Origin: Anaerolinea sp.
GTDB taxonomy: Bacteria; Chloroflexota; Anaerolineae; Anaerolineales; Anaerolineaceae
Assembly: GCA_020216845.1 (NCBI GenBank)
Contig: JAIWNK010000012.1
Location: forward strand, 1 to 10,000
Direction of reading: 5' to 3'
Length of the DNA stretch: 10,000 nt
Below the pieces are notes generated by a model. The model did not search any database. It was not told the DNA's origin and saw only the letters and a list, made by a program, of their open reading frames with translations. The position numbers and the translations under genes are program-made. Below, in pieces: positions 3,994-10,000 of this stretch; the first letter of the stretch is position 1; each line of letters starts with the position of its first letter.

Positions 3994-5071
3994 CCCGCCC
4001 CATCAAAGCACACTCATACCCGCCCAATCGCGTCAATGTATTCCGAGCAGCGGCACTATTCAGCCACTCGCCCAGCGCCTGCACAACCGCATGATCATAC
4101 ACCTCAGCCAGAACAACCAAATCGTACCGCTCCAGCGTCAAGAAGACAAAGTGTAGCCCCTGCGCCAGTGCCGCCGCCTCCAGACCCAGCCCCACATCTG
4201 CCCGACCTTCCGCAACCGCCCGCGCCACGGCCAAATGTGTTTCCACCCCCTGCTGATAACCGGCAACCTCTGCCGCAGCAATCCCCAACCGTTTCAGCTG
4301 CGCATCCAACCAAACGCGCGTCCCCGAACCAGGCTGCCGATTGACAAAACGCAGATCCGGCTGCACCAAATCTTCCAGCCCACGCACTCGCCCTAACCAG
4401 TCGGCACGCAACATCAACCCCAAGCGCCGCTGCGCCAACGTCATCAACGCCACCCTACGCCCCGGCAACAATCGCCGCACAAACGGCACATTATATTCAT
4501 CTGTCTCCACATCCCACAAATGCGCTCCAGCCAGGTGTGCCTGTCCGTTGGCCAGGGCCATCAGCCCGCCCAAACTGCCCGCAAACTCCACCTCCAGCCC
4601 CAACGGCAACGGCAGCGCGAATGCCATCTCGGTCACCGCCGGGTCGTGACTGCCAACAAAGCGCAACACCTGCTCGGCAGCACGCAGCGGCACCGCATTG
4701 GAAAACTGTTGCCAGCGATCCAGCGCCAAATGCAGCGCCTGCTGCACTTCCAGCGGCGTGTACCCCGCTGTGAGCGTCTCCAGCAAAAACGCCTCGGCGC
4801 GGTGCAACAACGCCGCCCGCCGCAACAGATCGTCATTGGCCCGTGGCAAATTGGGCACCACGCGCGTCCCCTGCCCGGGCCGGCTGCTCAACAGCCCCTG
4901 ACGCACCAGTTCCGCATAAGCTCGCTGCACCGTGCCAATCGTGCAATTCCATGCCTGTGCCGCAACGCGCACCACCGGCAGCCGATCGCCCGGCTTTAGC
5001 CGTCCATCCAAAATCTTGCGCCGGATGTCTTCCGCAATCTTCTGATACAGAAATTGCTCATCCATGCTCAC
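3977..5071 (-). CDS. GntR-family HTH regulator with C-terminal periplasmic-binding-like (COG1910/PBP_like) domain
   Basis: This is a cytoplasmic one-component transcription regulator of 364 residues. The N-terminal winged helix (about 8-72) has the GntR layout: LYQKIAEDIRRKILDG, LKPGDRLPVVRVAAQ, TIGTVQRAYAELVRQGLL and RPGQGTRVV. A helical linker follows. From about 150 to 350 lies a PBP-like fold with GSLGGLMALANGQAHLAGAHL, FVNRQPGSGTRVWLD, GRADVGLGLEAAA and the closing DLVVLAEVY. This resembles the molybdate/tungstate-binding-like domain (COG1910, PF12727) fused to HTH domains. The ligand is therefore plausibly a small anion such as molybdate or tungstate, but no Mo or W gene lies in the window. 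The GTG at 5069-5071 overlaps the protease TGA (GTGA), suggesting coupling; an ATG two codons later (5065) is an alternative start. It ends in TAG overlapping the 3' end of the diguanylate cyclase gene. Confidence 0.85.
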   Translation of the reverse strand: MSMDEQFLYQKIAEDIRRKILDGRLKPGDRLPVVRVAAQAWNCTIGTVQRAYAELVRQGLLSSRPGQGTRVVPNLPRANDDLLRRAALLHRAEAFLLETLTAGYTPLEVQQALHLALDRWQQFSNAVPLRAAEQVLRFVGSHDPAVTEMAFALPLPLGLEVEFAGSLGGLMALANGQAHLAGAHLWDVETDEYNVPFVRRLLPGRRVALMTLAQRRLGLMLRADWLGRVRGLEDLVQPDLRFVNRQPGSGTRVWLDAQLKRLGIAAAEVAGYQQGVETHLAVARAVAEGRADVGLGLEAAALAQGLHFVFLTLERYDLVVLAEVYDHAVVQALGEWLNSAAARNTLTRLGGYECALMGRVIWLD

Positions 5072-7275
5072 CGCAAAATTCCCGGCAAGAACAGTCCATG
5101 CATCAGCGCAGTAAACGCATCCTCACCGGTCGGCCAGGCCTCCACATTGCCAGCGCCATCCGTCGCCCGACAGCGAAAAGCATAGCGATGGCCCACCTGC
5201 CCGTCGTAAAGCGAGCTTGTCTCCGTCCCGCTATACCAATCCGTCCAGGCCCCGTCATCCACCTTGACCTGCACGGCGTAGCCCGCCACCCCGCTCAACG
5301 CATCGCTGCCGCTCCACTGCACCACAAAATCTACATCGCCCAGCTGCCACGCCGGCAATGCCTGCACCGCCGATTGCGGCGCCGCCCGATCCAGCGTAAT
5401 GGAATCCACGGCTGCCACCGACACGTTCCCGGCCGCGTCCCGATATTGCACAAAGACCGTCTTCATTCCATCACTACCGCTCAAAGTATAGGCTGCTGTT
5501 GACGCATAGGCCTGCCAGGCGGCCCAACTGCTGCCATCATTGCTAAAGCGCATCTCCGTCACCCCGCTGCCCGGCAACGGATCATTGCCCGACAAACTGA
5601 GCATCACGCTTGGATTGTTGGTGTAGGGCGCATCGGCATTGATTGCGATTCCGCCAGTTGGCGGCAAACTATCCACCGAAAATGAATAGCTGACCACTTG
5701 TGCGTTCATCCAACGGTTGGTCGCCTGCAACACAATCGTATGCGGCCCCTGCGGCAACCCCGTCACCTCAAAATCGAACTCCTCGGCCACCTCGTCAATC
5801 ACCCCATCCAACGGCACAATCGTTGTCCAACTTCCGCCATCCAACTGATAGCTGAGGCTAATGAGACGGTTGATCGTCATCGAATTGCCATTGGGTGAAG
5901 GATATGGTTGATCTTCCACGCTGCCCACAAACCGCACCGTCGCCCCGGTCCAACTGCCCGGCGCCTGCGTAATCGCAAACCCCGGCAGCGTATCCACCGG
6001 ATCGAGCTTGCCATCGCCATCGCTATCGCGCATGCCCACCTGCTGCTGACTGACCGTGCAAACGCCACTCGCGGTTGACCCCGTGCGCATCAGACACGAC
6101 ACCAACTTGCACGATGTGCAGCCCCAGCAATTGCTGCTGCCACTGTCGTTGCCATCGCACTGTCCATTGCCGTTTTGATCACAGCCGGCCGAGCAATTTT
6201 CGTTTGCAATGCCCAAATACCCCAACGCACCGCTACACGCACAACAAGCATAGCCCGGTGAACAATACTCATCCCCGGCACCGAAATCATGTCCGAACTC
6301 ATGCGCCATCACGCTATCCATGTTGCCAATGCCCCAACCGTCGTTGTCATACGTCATCACCACCACCGGCGGGTTAACATACGTATAACCAAAATACCCC
6401 GACGGGAACATACCATCCGCATCGTTCAAGCTATCCGCCACAAACGCCACCACCGCCCAATCGGCGCCATATTGTGTGCGGATTGCGTTCAAATAGTCAT
6501 AGGCCTGCAGAGACCACGTCGTCCCGGGGTAACCAAGCGCCGTCAGCGCCTCGTTCATCCACAGCCCATCATCCGGATAGCCATGCTGAATCGGCTCATA
6601 ACCGGTTGGCACCTGCTGATGCACAGCATAAACAAATTGCAACGCTCCCGCCGGATTGGTCACCGCCCACCAGTTCATTGCGTTGGTAATTTCGTTGATC
6701 ACCGTCTGCATGCGCGTTGAATCCCAATTTTCGGTTTGCGGCTCGTGCCCGCCGTTGCTCTCCGGCAAAATGATGCCGACCACCACCCGCCCGGCCATGA
6801 ACTCGCTCAAGTCATATGGCCCGGGCAAGCCATGCGCCTCGCTCGGCACCTCCGGCAAGTCCACATCCAATGTCAGCACGTCATTGGTCAACGGCCGTCC
6901 GCTCAGACTCGTCTCAAAAGGCTGCAGCGCCCCACGCCGTTCATTCCAGAGCGCCGCTGCCGCCTGCGCCAGGGGACTGCGCCCAGCCAGCAAGCCCTCC
7001 GTCACCGGCCCGCGCACCACCGTCACCCCCGCCGGCGGTGCTGCCCATAGCGGCAACGACCCCAGCAACACATCCGGCGGAAAGATATCGCGCACACACC
7101 CACCGCGCTGCTCAATTTCCCGCACGGCCACCTGCCAATCCCCCTCCACCAGCAAGAACGCATCCACCGCACAACTGATTTGCGCAGCCCCAGCCCCCAC
7201 CGCACCCTGCACCTGCAAACTGCCCCCCAACAGCGTCACTACCAGCAACCCCGCCAAAACCCATTGAGCCTTCAT
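5068..7275 (-). CDS. Secreted metzincin-like zinc metalloprotease with Ig-like repeats
   Basis: A 735-residue exported protein. The ATG at 7275 (SD GGGAG 8 nt upstream) opens a Sec signal peptide, MKAQWVLAGLLVVTLLGG, cleaved near VQGA. The catalytic region carries HEFGHDFGAGD (residues 325-335). This is the HExxHxxGxxD form of the metzincin zinc site, with Asp as the probable third ligand and Glu326 as general base. SCLMRTG (Met396) may be the Met-turn. Between them is a Cys-rich insert of about a dozen cysteines with a DQNGNGQCDGND calcium-like loop; a second loop, DSDGDGKLDPVD, follows. Three Ig-like or FN3-like beta domains fill about 430-535, 536-630 and 631-720. The chain ends LFLPGILR. 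Substrate and exact peptidase family are unknown; the site resembles snapalysin-type Asp metzincins only in motif. The gene stands downstream of the DGR terminator, so it should have its own promoter. Confidence 0.8.
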   Translation of the reverse strand: MKAQWVLAGLLVVTLLGGSLQVQGAVGAGAAQISCAVDAFLLVEGDWQVAVREIEQRGGCVRDIFPPDVLLGSLPLWAAPPAGVTVVRGPVTEGLLAGRSPLAQAAAALWNERRGALQPFETSLSGRPLTNDVLTLDVDLPEVPSEAHGLPGPYDLSEFMAGRVVVGIILPESNGGHEPQTENWDSTRMQTVINEITNAMNWWAVTNPAGALQFVYAVHQQVPTGYEPIQHGYPDDGLWMNEALTALGYPGTTWSLQAYDYLNAIRTQYGADWAVVAFVADSLNDADGMFPSGYFGYTYVNPPVVVMTYDNDGWGIGNMDSVMAHEFGHDFGAGDEYCSPGYACCACSGALGYLGIANENCSAGCDQNGNGQCDGNDSGSSNCWGCTSCKLVSCLMRTGSTASGVCTVSQQQVGMRDSDGDGKLDPVDTLPGFAITQAPGSWTGATVRFVGSVEDQPYPSPNGNSMTINRLISLSYQLDGGSWTTIVPLDGVIDEVAEEFDFEVTGLPQGPHTIVLQATNRWMNAQVVSYSFSVDSLPPTGGIAINADAPYTNNPSVMLSLSGNDPLPGSGVTEMRFSNDGSSWAAWQAYASTAAYTLSGSDGMKTVFVQYRDAAGNVSVAAVDSITLDRAAPQSAVQALPAWQLGDVDFVVQWSGSDALSGVAGYAVQVKVDDGAWTDWYSGTETSSLYDGQVGHRYAFRCRATDGAGNVEAWPTGEDAFTALMHGLFLPGILR

Positions 7276-7316
7276 CACACACACTCCCAGAAATTCAGAA
7301 ACAATCCGTTTCTTCT

Positions 7317-7353: not shown

Positions 7354-7393
7354 AAAAAACTGCCCGGGCTGGAAAAGCCAAAACAACCCGGGC
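7354..7393 (-). terminator. Rho-independent terminator of the DGR operon
   Basis: On the minus strand GCCCGGGTT (7385-7393) and AGCCCGGGC (7362-7370) pair over 9 bp, including one G-U, around a 14-nt loop. AG and then six T's (7354-7359) follow directly. It lies about 120 nt beyond TR and closes the target-RT-avd-TR transcription unit. The self-complementary CCCGGG cores make other local folds possible. On the plus strand the T-rich tail is weaker and there is no plus-strand gene to terminate. Confidence 0.8.
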
Positions 7394-7513
7394 TATTTTC
7401 TATTTGCCTGACCCAAAGGTCAGACGGGAACAGTCAGCGCTTGCTTGCACGAAGCACCCCTGATTGAGCTGCTCACCCAACCAGATTCTGGCACCGCGCC
7501 TGATGAAAGCAAT
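7394..7513 (-). ncRNA. TR 3' spacer of the DGR RNA
   Basis: These 120 nt without a recognisable gene lie between the 3' end of TR and the terminator. They contain a small hairpin, CTGACC-TTTG-GGTCAG (7408-7423). In the Bordetella phage DGR the RNA directly 3' of TR is needed for cDNA priming and for RT-Avd binding, so this stretch is the expected equivalent. That role is inference from position only. In the frame of TR it stays open until a TAG at 7400-7402. Confidence 0.5.
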
Positions 7514-7619
7514 GAAGAGGCGAAAACCGGCATTGTTGTTGAAGTTCGAAGGTACGTTCCTGTTCCGGTACGAGCAGCGAGCGTTTCTATGATCATTGTT
7601 CCACGAACCGCCCCGCAGC
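7514..7619 (-). repeat. DGR template repeat (TR)
   Basis: 106 bp matching VR (9214-9319) without gaps, offset exactly 1700 bp. On the minus strand it reads in the VR frame as [20 protein letters not shown] and continues [14 protein letters not shown], rich in AAC/AAT codons as DGR templates are. It holds 25 adenines in 15 codons, and 14 of them differ in VR. No non-adenine base differs. The last 18 nt, GCCGGTTTTCGCCTCTTC, contain no adenine and are identical in both copies, matching the place of the initiation-of-mutagenic-homing segment. TR starts 17 nt after the avd stop codon and should be copied from the operon RNA by the reverse transcriptase. Confidence 0.97.
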
Positions 7620-7636
7620 CTCCTGACGTTCCCAAC

Positions 7637-8017
7637 TCAAGCACCTTCCTGTGTGCATAAGTCCTGTTCCACCTTTGGGGCCGGGCCGACTTTCTTCATC
7701 CAACCGCCCAACAAACGGCCCACCTCAACCAACATCTCAGCCCCGTGTTCATACTGTCCAATCTTCAGTAAATGACGGTCATAGCTCAAGCGCAGGTACA
7801 AACGCAACATCGCCAGCAAATGGTCCGCCTCTTTCAATTCAAAAAGCGGATTGGCACTATGTGCGGCCTTTGCCAATTTACTATACAAATCAAATGCAGC
7901 ATCCTCTAACCGCCGCGCCATACGAAAGCGCTCACTCTTGGGAAAATTTTCAGTTTCGCCCAACAACCAGATGATAAAACGATAGGTGCAACTGAACACC
8001 GGAGAAGTCTTTTCCAT
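7637..8017 (-). CDS. avd: DGR accessory variability determinant (Avd-like four-helix bundle)
   Basis: A 126-residue basic helical protein. Avd forms a pentameric barrel of four-helix bundles that binds the reverse transcriptase and the TR RNA and is needed for mutagenic cDNA synthesis. Family features that I see are YRFIIWLLGETENFPKSERF (helix 1 and the FPK turn), ARRLEDAAFDLYSKLAKA, the LLAMLRLYLRLSYDRHLL helix, IGQYEHGAEMLVEVGRLLGGW and a basic MKK end. The ATG at 8015-8017 has GAGG 5 nt upstream and sits 7 nt after the RT stop. The longer frame from 8077 would overlap the RT gene and add an unlike N-terminus, so I reject it. TR follows 17 nt after the stop. The same bundle family includes the 23S rRNA intervening-sequence proteins, but the context settles the role. 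Confidence 0.93.
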   Translation of the reverse strand: MEKTSPVFSCTYRFIIWLLGETENFPKSERFRMARRLEDAAFDLYSKLAKAAHSANPLFELKEADHLLAMLRLYLRLSYDRHLLKIGQYEHGAEMLVEVGRLLGGWMKKVGPAPKVEQDLCTQEGA

Positions 8018-8024
8018 CCCCACC

Positions 8025-9074
8025 TCACAGCACCACCGAACGAAGCATCGCCATCCGCAGTCCCCAGGTATCACCATGCTGCGCGTGATGGATCCATCCC
8101 TGAATGCTGGCCTGCATCTGTTGCAAACTGCGCTCCCCCGCCCAATAAGCCTTCAGTCCCGTTCGTAGCCGACGGCGAAACTGCACCACTTTGCGACGCT
8201 TCAAACGTCGATGGGATGGAAAGACTTGAAAACCCAAAAAGGGAATTCCAATTGCGCACGGACGCGGCTGTGCGCTGCCCTCGTGCACGGTTAGCCGCAA
8301 ATCCGCAAGCCGCCTGATCACAGCCTGTCGCCACATATGCATCTGCCGCAAATCATCTCCAAAAAGCAGCATATCATCCACGTAACGCACATATCCCCCA
8401 ACGCCTAATCGCCGTTTAATAAAATGATCCAGCCCATTCAAATACACATTCGCCCAAAACTGACTGGTCAAATTGCCAATTGGCAACCCGCGCGGGCGTA
8501 TTGCTGCCAATAAATCATCCCCCGGGAAGTAAACCATCTCATACTCTGTTGCTAGCACCCCTTCCCCACCGCGTAAGATTCTAGCGCACAGATCGAGAAC
8601 GTCCTCATCCCTGATCCCTTGCTGCAATTGCTGTAACAAAATAGCGTGATCCACCGACGGGAAAAACTTGCGCACATCGAGCGGCAACACATAACGAAAA
8701 CGCCGCAAATATTGCGTTGCCCGATCCAACGCCTTATGCGTTCCTTTACCGACCCGATTTGCATAGCTATCATACACAAAGCGCCGTTCCCACAACGGCT
8801 GAATCACATTGCACAAAGCATGATGCACAACCCGATCGCGAAAGGGTGCCGCCGAAATCAACCGGCGCTTGGGATCATGAATCCAAAAATTCACGTATTC
8901 TCCTGGCTGATAACTTGCAGAGCGCAGTTCATCGCGCAGCCTCAAAAGATTCTCCTCTAAATCAAATTCAAAACTTGCCACAGCCGCGTGACTACGCTTG
9001 CCACGTGCCGCCTGTTCAAACGCCATTCGCAAGTTCAAGAAACTTGTCAATTGTTGCCACAGAGTTGGTTGCAT
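8025..9074 (-). CDS. DGR reverse transcriptase
   Basis: An RNA-dependent DNA polymerase of 349 residues that copies TR RNA into cDNA with errors at adenines. Visible motifs are RSASYQPGEY and PKRRLISAAPFRDRVVHHAL (68-87, RT0/RT1), VLPLDVRKFFPSVDHAIL (129-146, catalytic Asp133) and RGLPIGNLTSQFWANVYLN (195-213). The last has the (I/L/V)GNxxSQ block that distinguishes DGR enzymes from the QGxxxSP/SQ of group II intron and retroviral enzymes. Next come YVRYVDDMLLFGDD with YVDD at 231-234, and IPFLGFQVFPSHRRLKRR (277-294). There is no maturase, endonuclease or RNase H domain, as usual for DGRs. I chose ATG 9074 because MQPTLWQQLTSFLNLRMAFE fits the family N-terminus. The in-frame start at 9158 would run through the hairpin/G-quadruplex. 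The SD is weak (AAAAGA). The stop is 7 nt before avd. Confidence 0.96.
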   Translation of the reverse strand: MQPTLWQQLTSFLNLRMAFEQAARGKRSHAAVASFEFDLEENLLRLRDELRSASYQPGEYVNFWIHDPKRRLISAAPFRDRVVHHALCNVIQPLWERRFVYDSYANRVGKGTHKALDRATQYLRRFRYVLPLDVRKFFPSVDHAILLQQLQQGIRDEDVLDLCARILRGGEGVLATEYEMVYFPGDDLLAAIRPRGLPIGNLTSQFWANVYLNGLDHFIKRRLGVGGYVRYVDDMLLFGDDLRQMHMWRQAVIRRLADLRLTVHEGSAQPRPCAIGIPFLGFQVFPSHRRLKRRKVVQFRRRLRTGLKAYWAGERSLQQMQASIQGWIHHAQHGDTWGLRMAMLRSVVL

Positions 9075-9125
9075 CGTCTTTTCATCTGCCTTTCTAACCC
9101 ATGATTGCTCAAAAATTTTGCGCGG

Positions 9126-9150
9126 CTGGGGGCGGGAAGCCCGCCCCCAG
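9126..9150 (-). repeat. Strong GC hairpin between VR gene and RT gene
   Basis: Perfect 11-bp inverted repeat, CTGGGGGCGGG on both strands' 5' side, with a 3-nt loop. It lies 12 nt after the target stop and 63 nt beyond the VR 3' end. Hairpin/cruciform structures just 3' of VR aid homing in the Bordetella phage DGR, though there the distance is only a few nt. A T5 run (9111-9115, minus strand) lies about 10 nt after the stem, too far for a good terminator, but some attenuation of RT expression is possible. Confidence 0.6.
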
Positions 9151-9161
9151 ACCCCCACCCC
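9134..9161 (-). other. Canonical G-quadruplex motif
   Basis: The minus strand carries four G runs, GGGG-T-GGGGG-TCT-GGGGG-C-GGG, with loops of 1, 3 and 1 nt. It begins directly after the target gene stop and overlaps the 5' arm of the hairpin at 9126-9150, so the two folds are mutually exclusive. It would form in the mRNA and in the coding strand. Confidence 0.6.
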
Positions 9162-9162
9162 G

Positions 9163-10000
9163 TCAGAAATTCAGCATTTCAGAAACCAGCATTTCAGGAG
9201 GACGGAGCAAGGAGAAGAGGCGAAAACCGGCATCGCCGTGGAAGTTCGAAGGGACGAGCCTGAACCGGGACGAGCAGCGAGCGAAACTATGACCATTGTT
9301 CCACGAACCGCCCCGCAGCACGCGCCGCCCATCATCCTCCAATCCCTCAGCCGCCTCCGCCTGATAGGGATACGGCCGATAGAGGCTCAACGTCCACTCC
9401 CACACATTGCCATTCACATCCTCCAATTGCAGCTCACCAAAACCACCACCGGCCACAAACGCGCCCACCGGCGAAGGGCGCCGCAAGCCTGCCTCAAAGG
9501 TGTTGGCCGCACCCTCCAGCCAATCCTCTCCCCAGGCATAGCGCAGCCCCTGTGGCCCGCCGGCCGCCGCCTCCCAAAACGGCTCGGCCGGCAGGTCAAA
9601 ATGCCCGCCGACTTGTGCGCTCAGCCAGGCGCAATAGGCGCGCGCCTCAAACCAGGTCACCCCAACCACCGGCTGTGTCGGCTGCGCAAATTCGGCCACC
9701 TCCCAAAGCGCCGGGCGGCTGCGCCGCACCTCCTCCGCAGTTTCGGCAAAAGTCTCCTGCACCTGTTGGCGCGTCATCCTTGCCAGCTGCTCATAGGCCT
9801 CCATTTCTGACGGCGTTGCCCGCCCAGCCAACGCCAGCCGCCAGCCCGGATTCTGCTGCATGGTTTCCCAAACCGACAGCACTGCCCTCAGCCGCCCGCC
9901 GCCCACGGCCTCACCCTGCCGCCAGCGCTGCGCCAGCCCGCCCTGCCACCAATCTTCCTGCTCATAGCCACCCGCAGCCACAAAACAGGCAAACTCGGCG
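9163..10000 (-). CDS. DGR target protein, FGE-sulfatase/C-type-lectin fold (5' end beyond window)
   Basis: At least 278 residues; the frame is open to the right edge (AEFACFVAAGGYEQEDWW...), so the start and any N-terminal domain are outside. The fold is recognisable from FACFVAAGGY, QPVVGVTWFEARAYCAWLSA, the FDLPAEPFWEAAAGG block, YAWGEDW, DVNGNVWEWTLSLY and VLRGGSW. The last leads into the variable repeat and then GFRLF. Compared with ordinary FGE-like domains, there is an extra charged helical stretch of about 60 residues before QPVVGV. SWNN replaces the SWxC of true formylglycine-generating enzymes, so it is a ligand-binding display scaffold rather than an FGE catalyst. The VR encodes surface loops of the lectin-like fold, so binding specificity is expected to vary between cells. 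The last residues, EMLVSEML, come from a short DNA repeat. It heads the DGR operon. Confidence 0.92.
   Translation of the reverse strand, partial: AEFACFVAAGGYEQEDWWQGGLAQRWRQGEAVGGGRLRAVLSVWETMQQNPGWRLALAGRATPSEMEAYEQLARMTRQQVQETFAETAEEVRRSRPALWEVAEFAQPTQPVVGVTWFEARAYCAWLSAQVGGHFDLPAEPFWEAAAGGPQGLRYAWGEDWLEGAANTFEAGLRRPSPVGAFVAGGGFGELQLEDVNGNVWEWTLSLYRPYPYQAEAAEGLEDDGRRVLRGGSWNNGHSFARCSSRFRLVPSNFHGDAGFRLFSLLRPPEMLVSEMLNF
9172..9197. repeat. Two copies of an 11-bp direct repeat at the target gene 3' end
   Basis: CAGCATTTCAG occurs at 9172-9182 and 9187-9197 (15-bp period), and encodes the doubled EML at the end of the target protein (SEML, PEML). It lies between VR and the G-quadruplex. This may be a simple replication-slippage duplication. 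Confidence 0.6.
9214..9319 (-). repeat. DGR variable repeat (VR)
   Basis: This is the C-terminal codons of the target gene, aligned base for base with TR (7514-7619). It reads RGGSWNNGHSFARCSSRFRL then VPSNFHGDAGFRLF. Against TR there are nine amino acid changes (D to G, R to S, N to F, Y to S, N to F, N to L, N to H, N to G, N to D) and one silent change (GTA to GTC). All 14 nucleotide changes are at TR adenines, going to T (5), C (5) or G (4). The A-free 3' end is conserved. On the target stop side the match ends 49 nt before the stop codon. Confidence 0.97.

Follow-up and report, generated by a model that had tools for sequence, protein, structure and literature searches.

The window, by which we mean the whole 10,000-nucleotide stretch of DNA that was analyzed, carries on its minus strand the C-terminal part of a target gene with a variable repeat (VR), genes for a reverse transcriptase (RT) and the accessory protein Avd, a template repeat (TR) and a predicted RNA fold (Table 1). 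In the original prediction, these features were taken to form a complete diversity-generating retroelement (DGR). Directly behind the DGR, positions 5068-7284 of the minus strand encode a protein of 738 aa that weakly matches M6 metalloproteases and OmpL47-type proteins.

Table 1. Features of the locus in the window (RT-less cassettes at three other loci in the last three rows).
Feature	Position	Strand	Remarks
Target gene, C-terminal part	9163..9999	-	278 aa with FGE/C-type-lectin fold; PF03781 over cut-off; ORF open at 9999
VR	9214..9319	-	Target codons 912-947; 106-bp ungapped match to TR with adenine-only differences
Inverted repeat	9126..9150	-	Perfect, 11 bp, GC-rich, loop of 3 nt; starts 63 nt past VR; putative hairpin or cruciform for target recognition
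DGR reverse transcriptase	8025..9074	-	349 aa from ATG; RVT_1; best PDB match 8ub7; a 349-aa database protein is also known
Avd accessory protein	7637..8017	-	126 aa; inferred start at the ATG after the RT stop; ORF open from 8077
TR	7514..7619	-	25 adenines
RNA element, helix 1	7406..7425	-	8 pairs, 4-nt loop; predicted fold in this sequence
RNA element, linker	7394..7405	-	Single-stranded, A-rich, 12 nt, AAATAGAAAATA; conserved in relatives
RNA element, helix 2	7362..7393	-	10 bp, 12-nt loop, then AG and six T (7354-7359); covariation in relatives
L127 cassette	8261-8637		TR/VR and element; 15/16 mismatches at adenines; target KAP-FGE
L128 cassette	8844-9247		TR/VR and element; 19/20 mismatches at adenines; target TIR-FGE
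L136 cassette	8495-8808		TR/VR and element; 15/16 mismatches at adenines; target NACHT-FGE

The RT translation contains both IGNLTSQ and YVDD, as had been predicted, and we take these to be DGR RT motifs. Its best match in the PDB is 8ub7 (E = 3.6e-48), presumably the RT complex of the Bordetella phage BPP-1 DGR (the entry labels read "Reverse transcriptase" and "Avd"), followed by group II RTs at E = 3e-20. The NCBIfam group II family scores the RT at 137 bits, its cut-off being 300, and PADLOC returns generic RT models (25 of 62 families listed). Avd, whose presence had also been claimed, exceeds the cut-offs of Pfam PF22296 (bAvd) and NCBIfam NF033474, with weak matches to 4dwl (E = 3e-4) and to chain B of 8ub7 (E = 9e-4); a structure predicted for Avd without an alignment had a pLDDT of 48 and was left out of the analysis. 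The assembly searched amounts to 1.83 Mb in pieces, including 10-kb ones, and is 76% complete; a single RT match reaches E = 1e-20 in it, and a scan of genome_contigs with the RT confirmed no relative. A phage or plasmid origin of the DGR is unsupported: the closest phage RT is 37% identical among the matches listed (12 of 160 records) and the closest plasmid RT 48% identical among the matches listed (12 of at least 5000 records). The DGR is probably located on the chromosome, and the names carried by similar database proteins suggest that its host is one of the Anaerolineae/Chloroflexota.

TR and VR align on the minus strand without gaps over 106 bp at a fixed offset of 1700 bp, in agreement with the original prediction, which had also described their divergence as restricted to adenines. 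The 14 mismatches indeed fall on 14 of the 25 TR adenines (six A>T, four A>G and four A>C) and on none of the 81 remaining bases, for which the probability by chance is 4e-11. The estimate of 4^25 nucleotide variants is correct as well (10^15.05), and TR permits 10^13.57 distinct stop-free proteins, with one codon (AGA) that can be converted into a stop. VR occupies codons 912-947 of 963 in the target and lies inside PF03781, at the 3' end of the lectin-fold gene.

The target ORF runs on in frame into the next 10-kb assembly piece, C151, so that C150 and C151 hold a single reading frame, and this join is supported by a database protein of equal length, 963 aa, that is near-identical from end to end. 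The claim that RT, Avd, TR, VR and a lectin-fold target are all present and intact holds for their presence, but the target is incomplete in the window and becomes intact only once C151 is added. A search of the genome for the FGE family returned three rows, namely the target, one protein on C72 and the missing N-terminal part at the edge of C151. The joined target is 963 aa long from its likely start and consists of a central STAND-type NACHT NTPase (residues 167-256) and a single C-terminal CLec/FGE domain (residues 639-946). Judged by this domain content, the target is an NLR-like receptor with a NACHT NTPase and a C-terminal FGE domain.

We compared the target to natural alleles from a database protein search with the joined target, in which the best 120 of 628 matches were listed; P0121, P0122 and P0123, like the remote-gene allele P0241 treated below, are protein records, so the comparison is at the protein level. 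P0121 differs from the target at 13 of 963 residues, of which 12 fall among the 15 adenine-touched VR codons, none among the 21 other VR codons and one among the 927 codons outside VR (P = 5e-24 for the clustering on adenine-touched codons). All 15 adenine-touched codons of this allele can be reached from TR through adenine changes alone. For P0123, which shares 80% identity with the target over the region searched, the differences amount to 13/15 adenine-touched, 2/21 other VR and 233/908 outside codons, and 14 of its 15 adenine-touched codons are reachable from TR, with one missed. For P0122, the target of a sister species, the numbers are 6/15, 5/21 and 103/920, a pattern explained by a frameshift in the second half of its VR; either this allele is dead or its C-terminus was misassembled. 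The expectation that VR would vary across strains while the remainder stays constant is thus borne out for the target by P0121 at the protein level, and since its differences are confined almost wholly to the adenine-touched VR codons, we conclude that the DGR has acted in nature. There is next to no chance that the locus is an ordinary diverged duplication, or that its RT comes from another system (group II intron, retron or DRT): generic RT profiles do match the RT as well, but the duplication is ruled out by the adenine-only differences and the P0121 pattern, the other RT identities are ruled out by the PDB ranking and the sub-cut-off NCBIfam scores, and the presence of Avd argues against both.

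Inverted repeats are frequent behind VRs. Stems of at least 8 bp were found behind 19 of 37 VRs, as compared to 4.5% of 1850 random windows, and 16 of these 19 have 3-nt loops. Target recognition by BPP-1 requires the hairpin behind VR, and in phage-related DGRs a distance of 4-34 bp separates VR from hairpins whose loops are 4 nt long (PMC3240598).

When 121 relatives were searched at E = 1e-20, the own genome among them, 17 had an RT match, and at 1e-60 a match was obtained in 82 of 396 genomes of the class. After two pairs in L041 and one in L046 had been discarded as spurious, the fetched sister loci gave 14 TR/VR pairs in 13 of 20 loci. These pairs contain 264 mismatches, of which 255 coincide with a TR adenine, although only 444 of the 1548 positions are adenines; the count refers to pairs of at least 80% identity, as only such pairs were retained by the TR/VR finder. 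Among the class loci, the finder gave a TR/VR pair in 21 of 28.

The hairpin at 7354 had been described as a clear terminator. Comparative analysis instead identified it (10 bp, 12-nt loop, six T) as part of a conserved RNA element, and it was not listed in a terminator scan that allowed loops of 3-8 nt. The comparison comprised 34 TR loci, namely the window, 12 sister loci (without L043) and 21 class loci. Of the 34 loci, 26 have the motif [GC]C[AG]AATA at a distance of 50-230 nt past TR, as compared to 3% of 5657 random 180-nt windows; 15 of the 21 class loci are included in this count, and these are only partly independent since the pattern was set after they had been inspected. About 12 nt past the motif, a 10-bp stem with at least nine of ten pairs is present in 25 of the 26 loci (5.9% in shuffled sequences) and with all ten pairs in 19 (0.3% in shuffled sequences), with several pair types per position; the nine-pair stem of L054 is probably due to chance. 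In a 10-sequence alignment (A2) from which the window was left out, 100 of 100 cells pair, both sides change in seven of the ten pairs, and the covariation score is 0.80, as compared to 0.27 for shuffled and at most 0.15 for slid alignments. Another alignment, A3, includes mirror-strand rows and was fitted to the structure, and A2 gives the cleaner count.

A model of the element built from the 10-sequence alignment has its best match in the own genome at 7358-7409 on the minus strand (E = 6.6e-5), followed by five weaker matches (E = 0.03-0.9). At E = 0.01, the model detects 25 of the 34 TR loci, 89-210 nt behind TR, including 15 of the 24 loci that were not in the seed. At 1e-4, it matches 61 places in 53 of 396 class genomes; 29 of these places, some of them seed loci, have a listed RT match no more than 3 kb away, and all 29 are on the strand of the RT. 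Among the fetched loci with both element and RT, the two are on the same strand in 34 of 36 cases and on opposite strands in two. In a phylum sample searched at 1e-5, 4 of 301 genomes match, all four from the same order, with the own genome below the threshold. The search of Rfam gave a single match, at E = 0.94 and under the gathering score, and the model found nothing better than E = 0.97 in BPP-1, one Nostoc and one Prosthecochloris locus. No description of the defined element (helix 1, an 11-12-nt linker and helix 2) was found in Rfam or in the largely open-access literature searched.

It is improbable that the hairpin behind TR is a mere transcription terminator whose conservation is uninformative on DGR function. 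The six T in the window and the T-rich tails of several relatives would fit a terminator, but the A-rich linker is conserved as well (AAATA or GAATA in 25 of 25), and the T-run is absent from several copies of the element that are 3'-terminal; the contrast in T-runs between 3'-terminal elements and those that precede the RT is not significant (P = 0.28). Moreover, 20 of the 29 RT-near places lie 386-806 nt behind the RT gene and nine lie 10-148 nt before it, so that the element trails TR in either gene order, as would not be required of a plain terminator. Rather than a "terminator", the hairpin is more plausibly part of a structured domain at the 3' end of the template RNA. The RNA of the BPP-1 DGR is reportedly treated in a cryo-EM study from 2025. 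The spacer behind the TR of BPP-1 folds and recruits bRT-Avd, and an internal spacer adenine primes cDNA synthesis (PMC12875486). By analogy, we infer that the RNA element may be the version of the BPP-1 TR-spacer RNA domain in this class.

We fetched stretches of 7-18 kb around 13 of the 32 element places distant from a listed RT match. Three of these, L127, L128 and L136, hold a TR/VR pair with the element behind TR, and neither RT nor Avd was detected there by tblastn at 1e-3 within 17-18 kb; in these genomes, an RT match is located on another contig and is partial in one case. In L130 and L132, Avd is present and the RT is absent from the fetched stretch. The L129 locus (8090-9240) retains only remnants of an RT beside Avd, TR, VR and the element, with 24 of 24 mismatches at adenines, and its genome is a single contig without an RT match at 1e-60. 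The remaining seven of the 13 places have no credible TR/VR pair. L134, L135, L137, L138 and L139 have a match to the element and neither RT, Avd nor a credible TR/VR pair in the fetched stretch. No report of TR-element cassettes that lack an RT was found in the same largely open-access literature. The RNA element offers a search handle for template RNAs lacking an RT, some of them in cassettes that would escape a survey based on the RT.

When TR was used as a query, a third place was found at C72:2547-2618, within another NACHT-FGE gene whose product is 1017 aa after joining C71 and C72. The VR of this remote gene matches TR in its 3' part only; the 5' part does not match, and a gap is required. 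Differences in the 3' tract (66 bp, codons 991-1012) are seen at 6 of 15 adenines and at 1 of 51 other bases (Fisher 3e-4, for tract bounds that were set by eye), and the stem behind the remote VR has only 6 bp. An allele of the remote target, P0241, has 47 differences over 1017 aa; only four of them are located in residues 973-1017, at 1002, 1004, 1005 and 1006, which are the last four TR-adenine codons, and the five preceding adenine codons of the tract are unchanged. The probability that four of 47 differences fall within the nine adenine codons of the tract is 4e-4. Another record, P0242, was excluded for the remote gene, as its C-terminus breaks off within VR. The changes at the last four adenine codons suggest that the DGR acts in trans, and they would be accounted for if retrohoming started at the 3' side and covered only a short tract, a reading that is supported, not proven. 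It is unlikely that the remote gene is diversified, now or formerly, by another DGR that is absent from the assembly rather than by this TR. Such a DGR could reside in the missing quarter of the genome and would agree with the unmatched 5' half and the single non-adenine difference, but the own genome has only one RT match at 1e-20, and both the adenine bias of the tract and the fact that P0241 is changed within this VR at the last four adenine codons alone argue for this TR. The N-termini of the target (C151) and of the remote target (C71/C72) have the motif [FI][VI]GRDQ in common; a looser form of it occurs in the first 300 residues of 45/109 and 12/100 NACHT-FGE relatives longer than 800 aa, as compared to 5/1045 shuffles.

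Taken as a whole, the locus is best explained as a complete and recently active DGR with the order target(VR)-RT-Avd-TR-RNA element that rewrites the C-terminus of a NACHT-FGE protein, and we hold this with high confidence. The DGR interpretation of the original prediction is thereby supported by the RT, Avd, TR, VR and lectin-fold target together with the VR variation at the protein level. Adenine-specific random copying into cDNA is established for BPP-1. Here, TR and the structured RNA behind it would be transcribed, and RT and Avd would bind at the conserved element 3' of TR and reverse-transcribe TR, inserting random bases at the adenines, as in BPP-1. The cDNA would then replace VR at the C-terminus of the NACHT-FGE protein, the outcome of which is seen in the TR/VR comparison and in the natural allele, and the second NACHT-FGE gene may be altered in trans as well, within a short tract at the 3' end of its VR. 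The chances are about even that the element is a portable docking and priming site for RT-Avd by which one RT could serve several templates and targets, in a dispersed trans-acting network for receptor diversification that would include the remote NACHT sensor and the RT-less cassettes and would take the place of self-contained units.

As for the purpose of the DGR, we lean toward variation of the surface with which NLR-like sensors bind their ligands, perhaps as a defense against phages. The diversified NACHT-FGE proteins could alternatively serve signaling or self/non-self recognition rather than phage sensing, which we consider the less probable role, though one with a real chance of being right, and the operation of the DGR would be unchanged. 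No N-terminal effector domain was found over the Pfam cut-off in either NACHT-FGE target, nor was an effector domain or defense gene identified that accompanies them, and the cyanobacterial study interprets DGR targets as signaling proteins (PMC7517822). Against this, antiviral STAND proteins are likewise built from a NACHT domain and a C-terminal sensor that varies (PMC10907252). The target is a clear natural example of an NLR-like receptor in which rewriting is limited to the recognition patch, two alleles being near-identical over the 963 residues except at the adenine codons of the template. With one RT, one TR and two receptors, the system is also a compact one in which to ask if bacterial DGRs constitute adaptive immunity.

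Like the antiviral STAND and bacterial NACHT proteins, the targets combine a NACHT NTPase with a C-terminal sensor domain. Unlike these, they have no recognized N-terminal effector and their FGE sensor is diversified by a DGR. The BPP-1 DGR likewise has an RT, Avd, adenine-specific TR/VR differences and structured RNA behind TR, and it has a hairpin behind VR to which the inverted repeat described here may correspond. It differs in its phage tail target and in its gene order, mtd-avd-TR-RT; its RT is 35% identical to the RT described here, and the element model (R1) has no convincing match in BPP-1. The hairpin is located 4 bp behind VR in BPP-1, as compared to 63 nt with a 3-nt loop here.

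Remote DGR targets have been reported in cyanobacteria, where remote VRs likewise reside in CLec genes elsewhere in the genome (PMC7517822). The cyanobacterial hosts belong to another phylum, and the remote gene described here has allele evidence and a tract that is 3'-only. A DGR survey states that its own approach would miss remote targets (PMC8144416).

In target architecture, the system resembles the DGRs of multicellular bacteria that act on NACHT/STAND-FGE proteins, for which targets in trans, loci that are incomplete and variation in nature have been described (PMC10907252). In Thiohalocapsa PB-PSB1, the targets of DGR 3 and DGR 6 (clade 5D) likewise combine a NACHT NTPase with a C-terminal FGE/CLec domain that carries VR, and the DGRs of this species also have more than one target, targets in trans and variation in natural populations (PMC10907252). 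Unlike the Thiohalocapsa DGRs, the system described here has one RT in its own 76%-complete assembly. A strict match at all non-adenine bases is applied in that study (PMC10907252), from which the remote VR departs by one mismatch in the 3' tract and an unmatched 5' part. DGRs form a large known class, and given the NACHT-diversifying DGRs of that study, this kind of system has already been described; the newer parts here are the RNA element and the RT-less cassettes.
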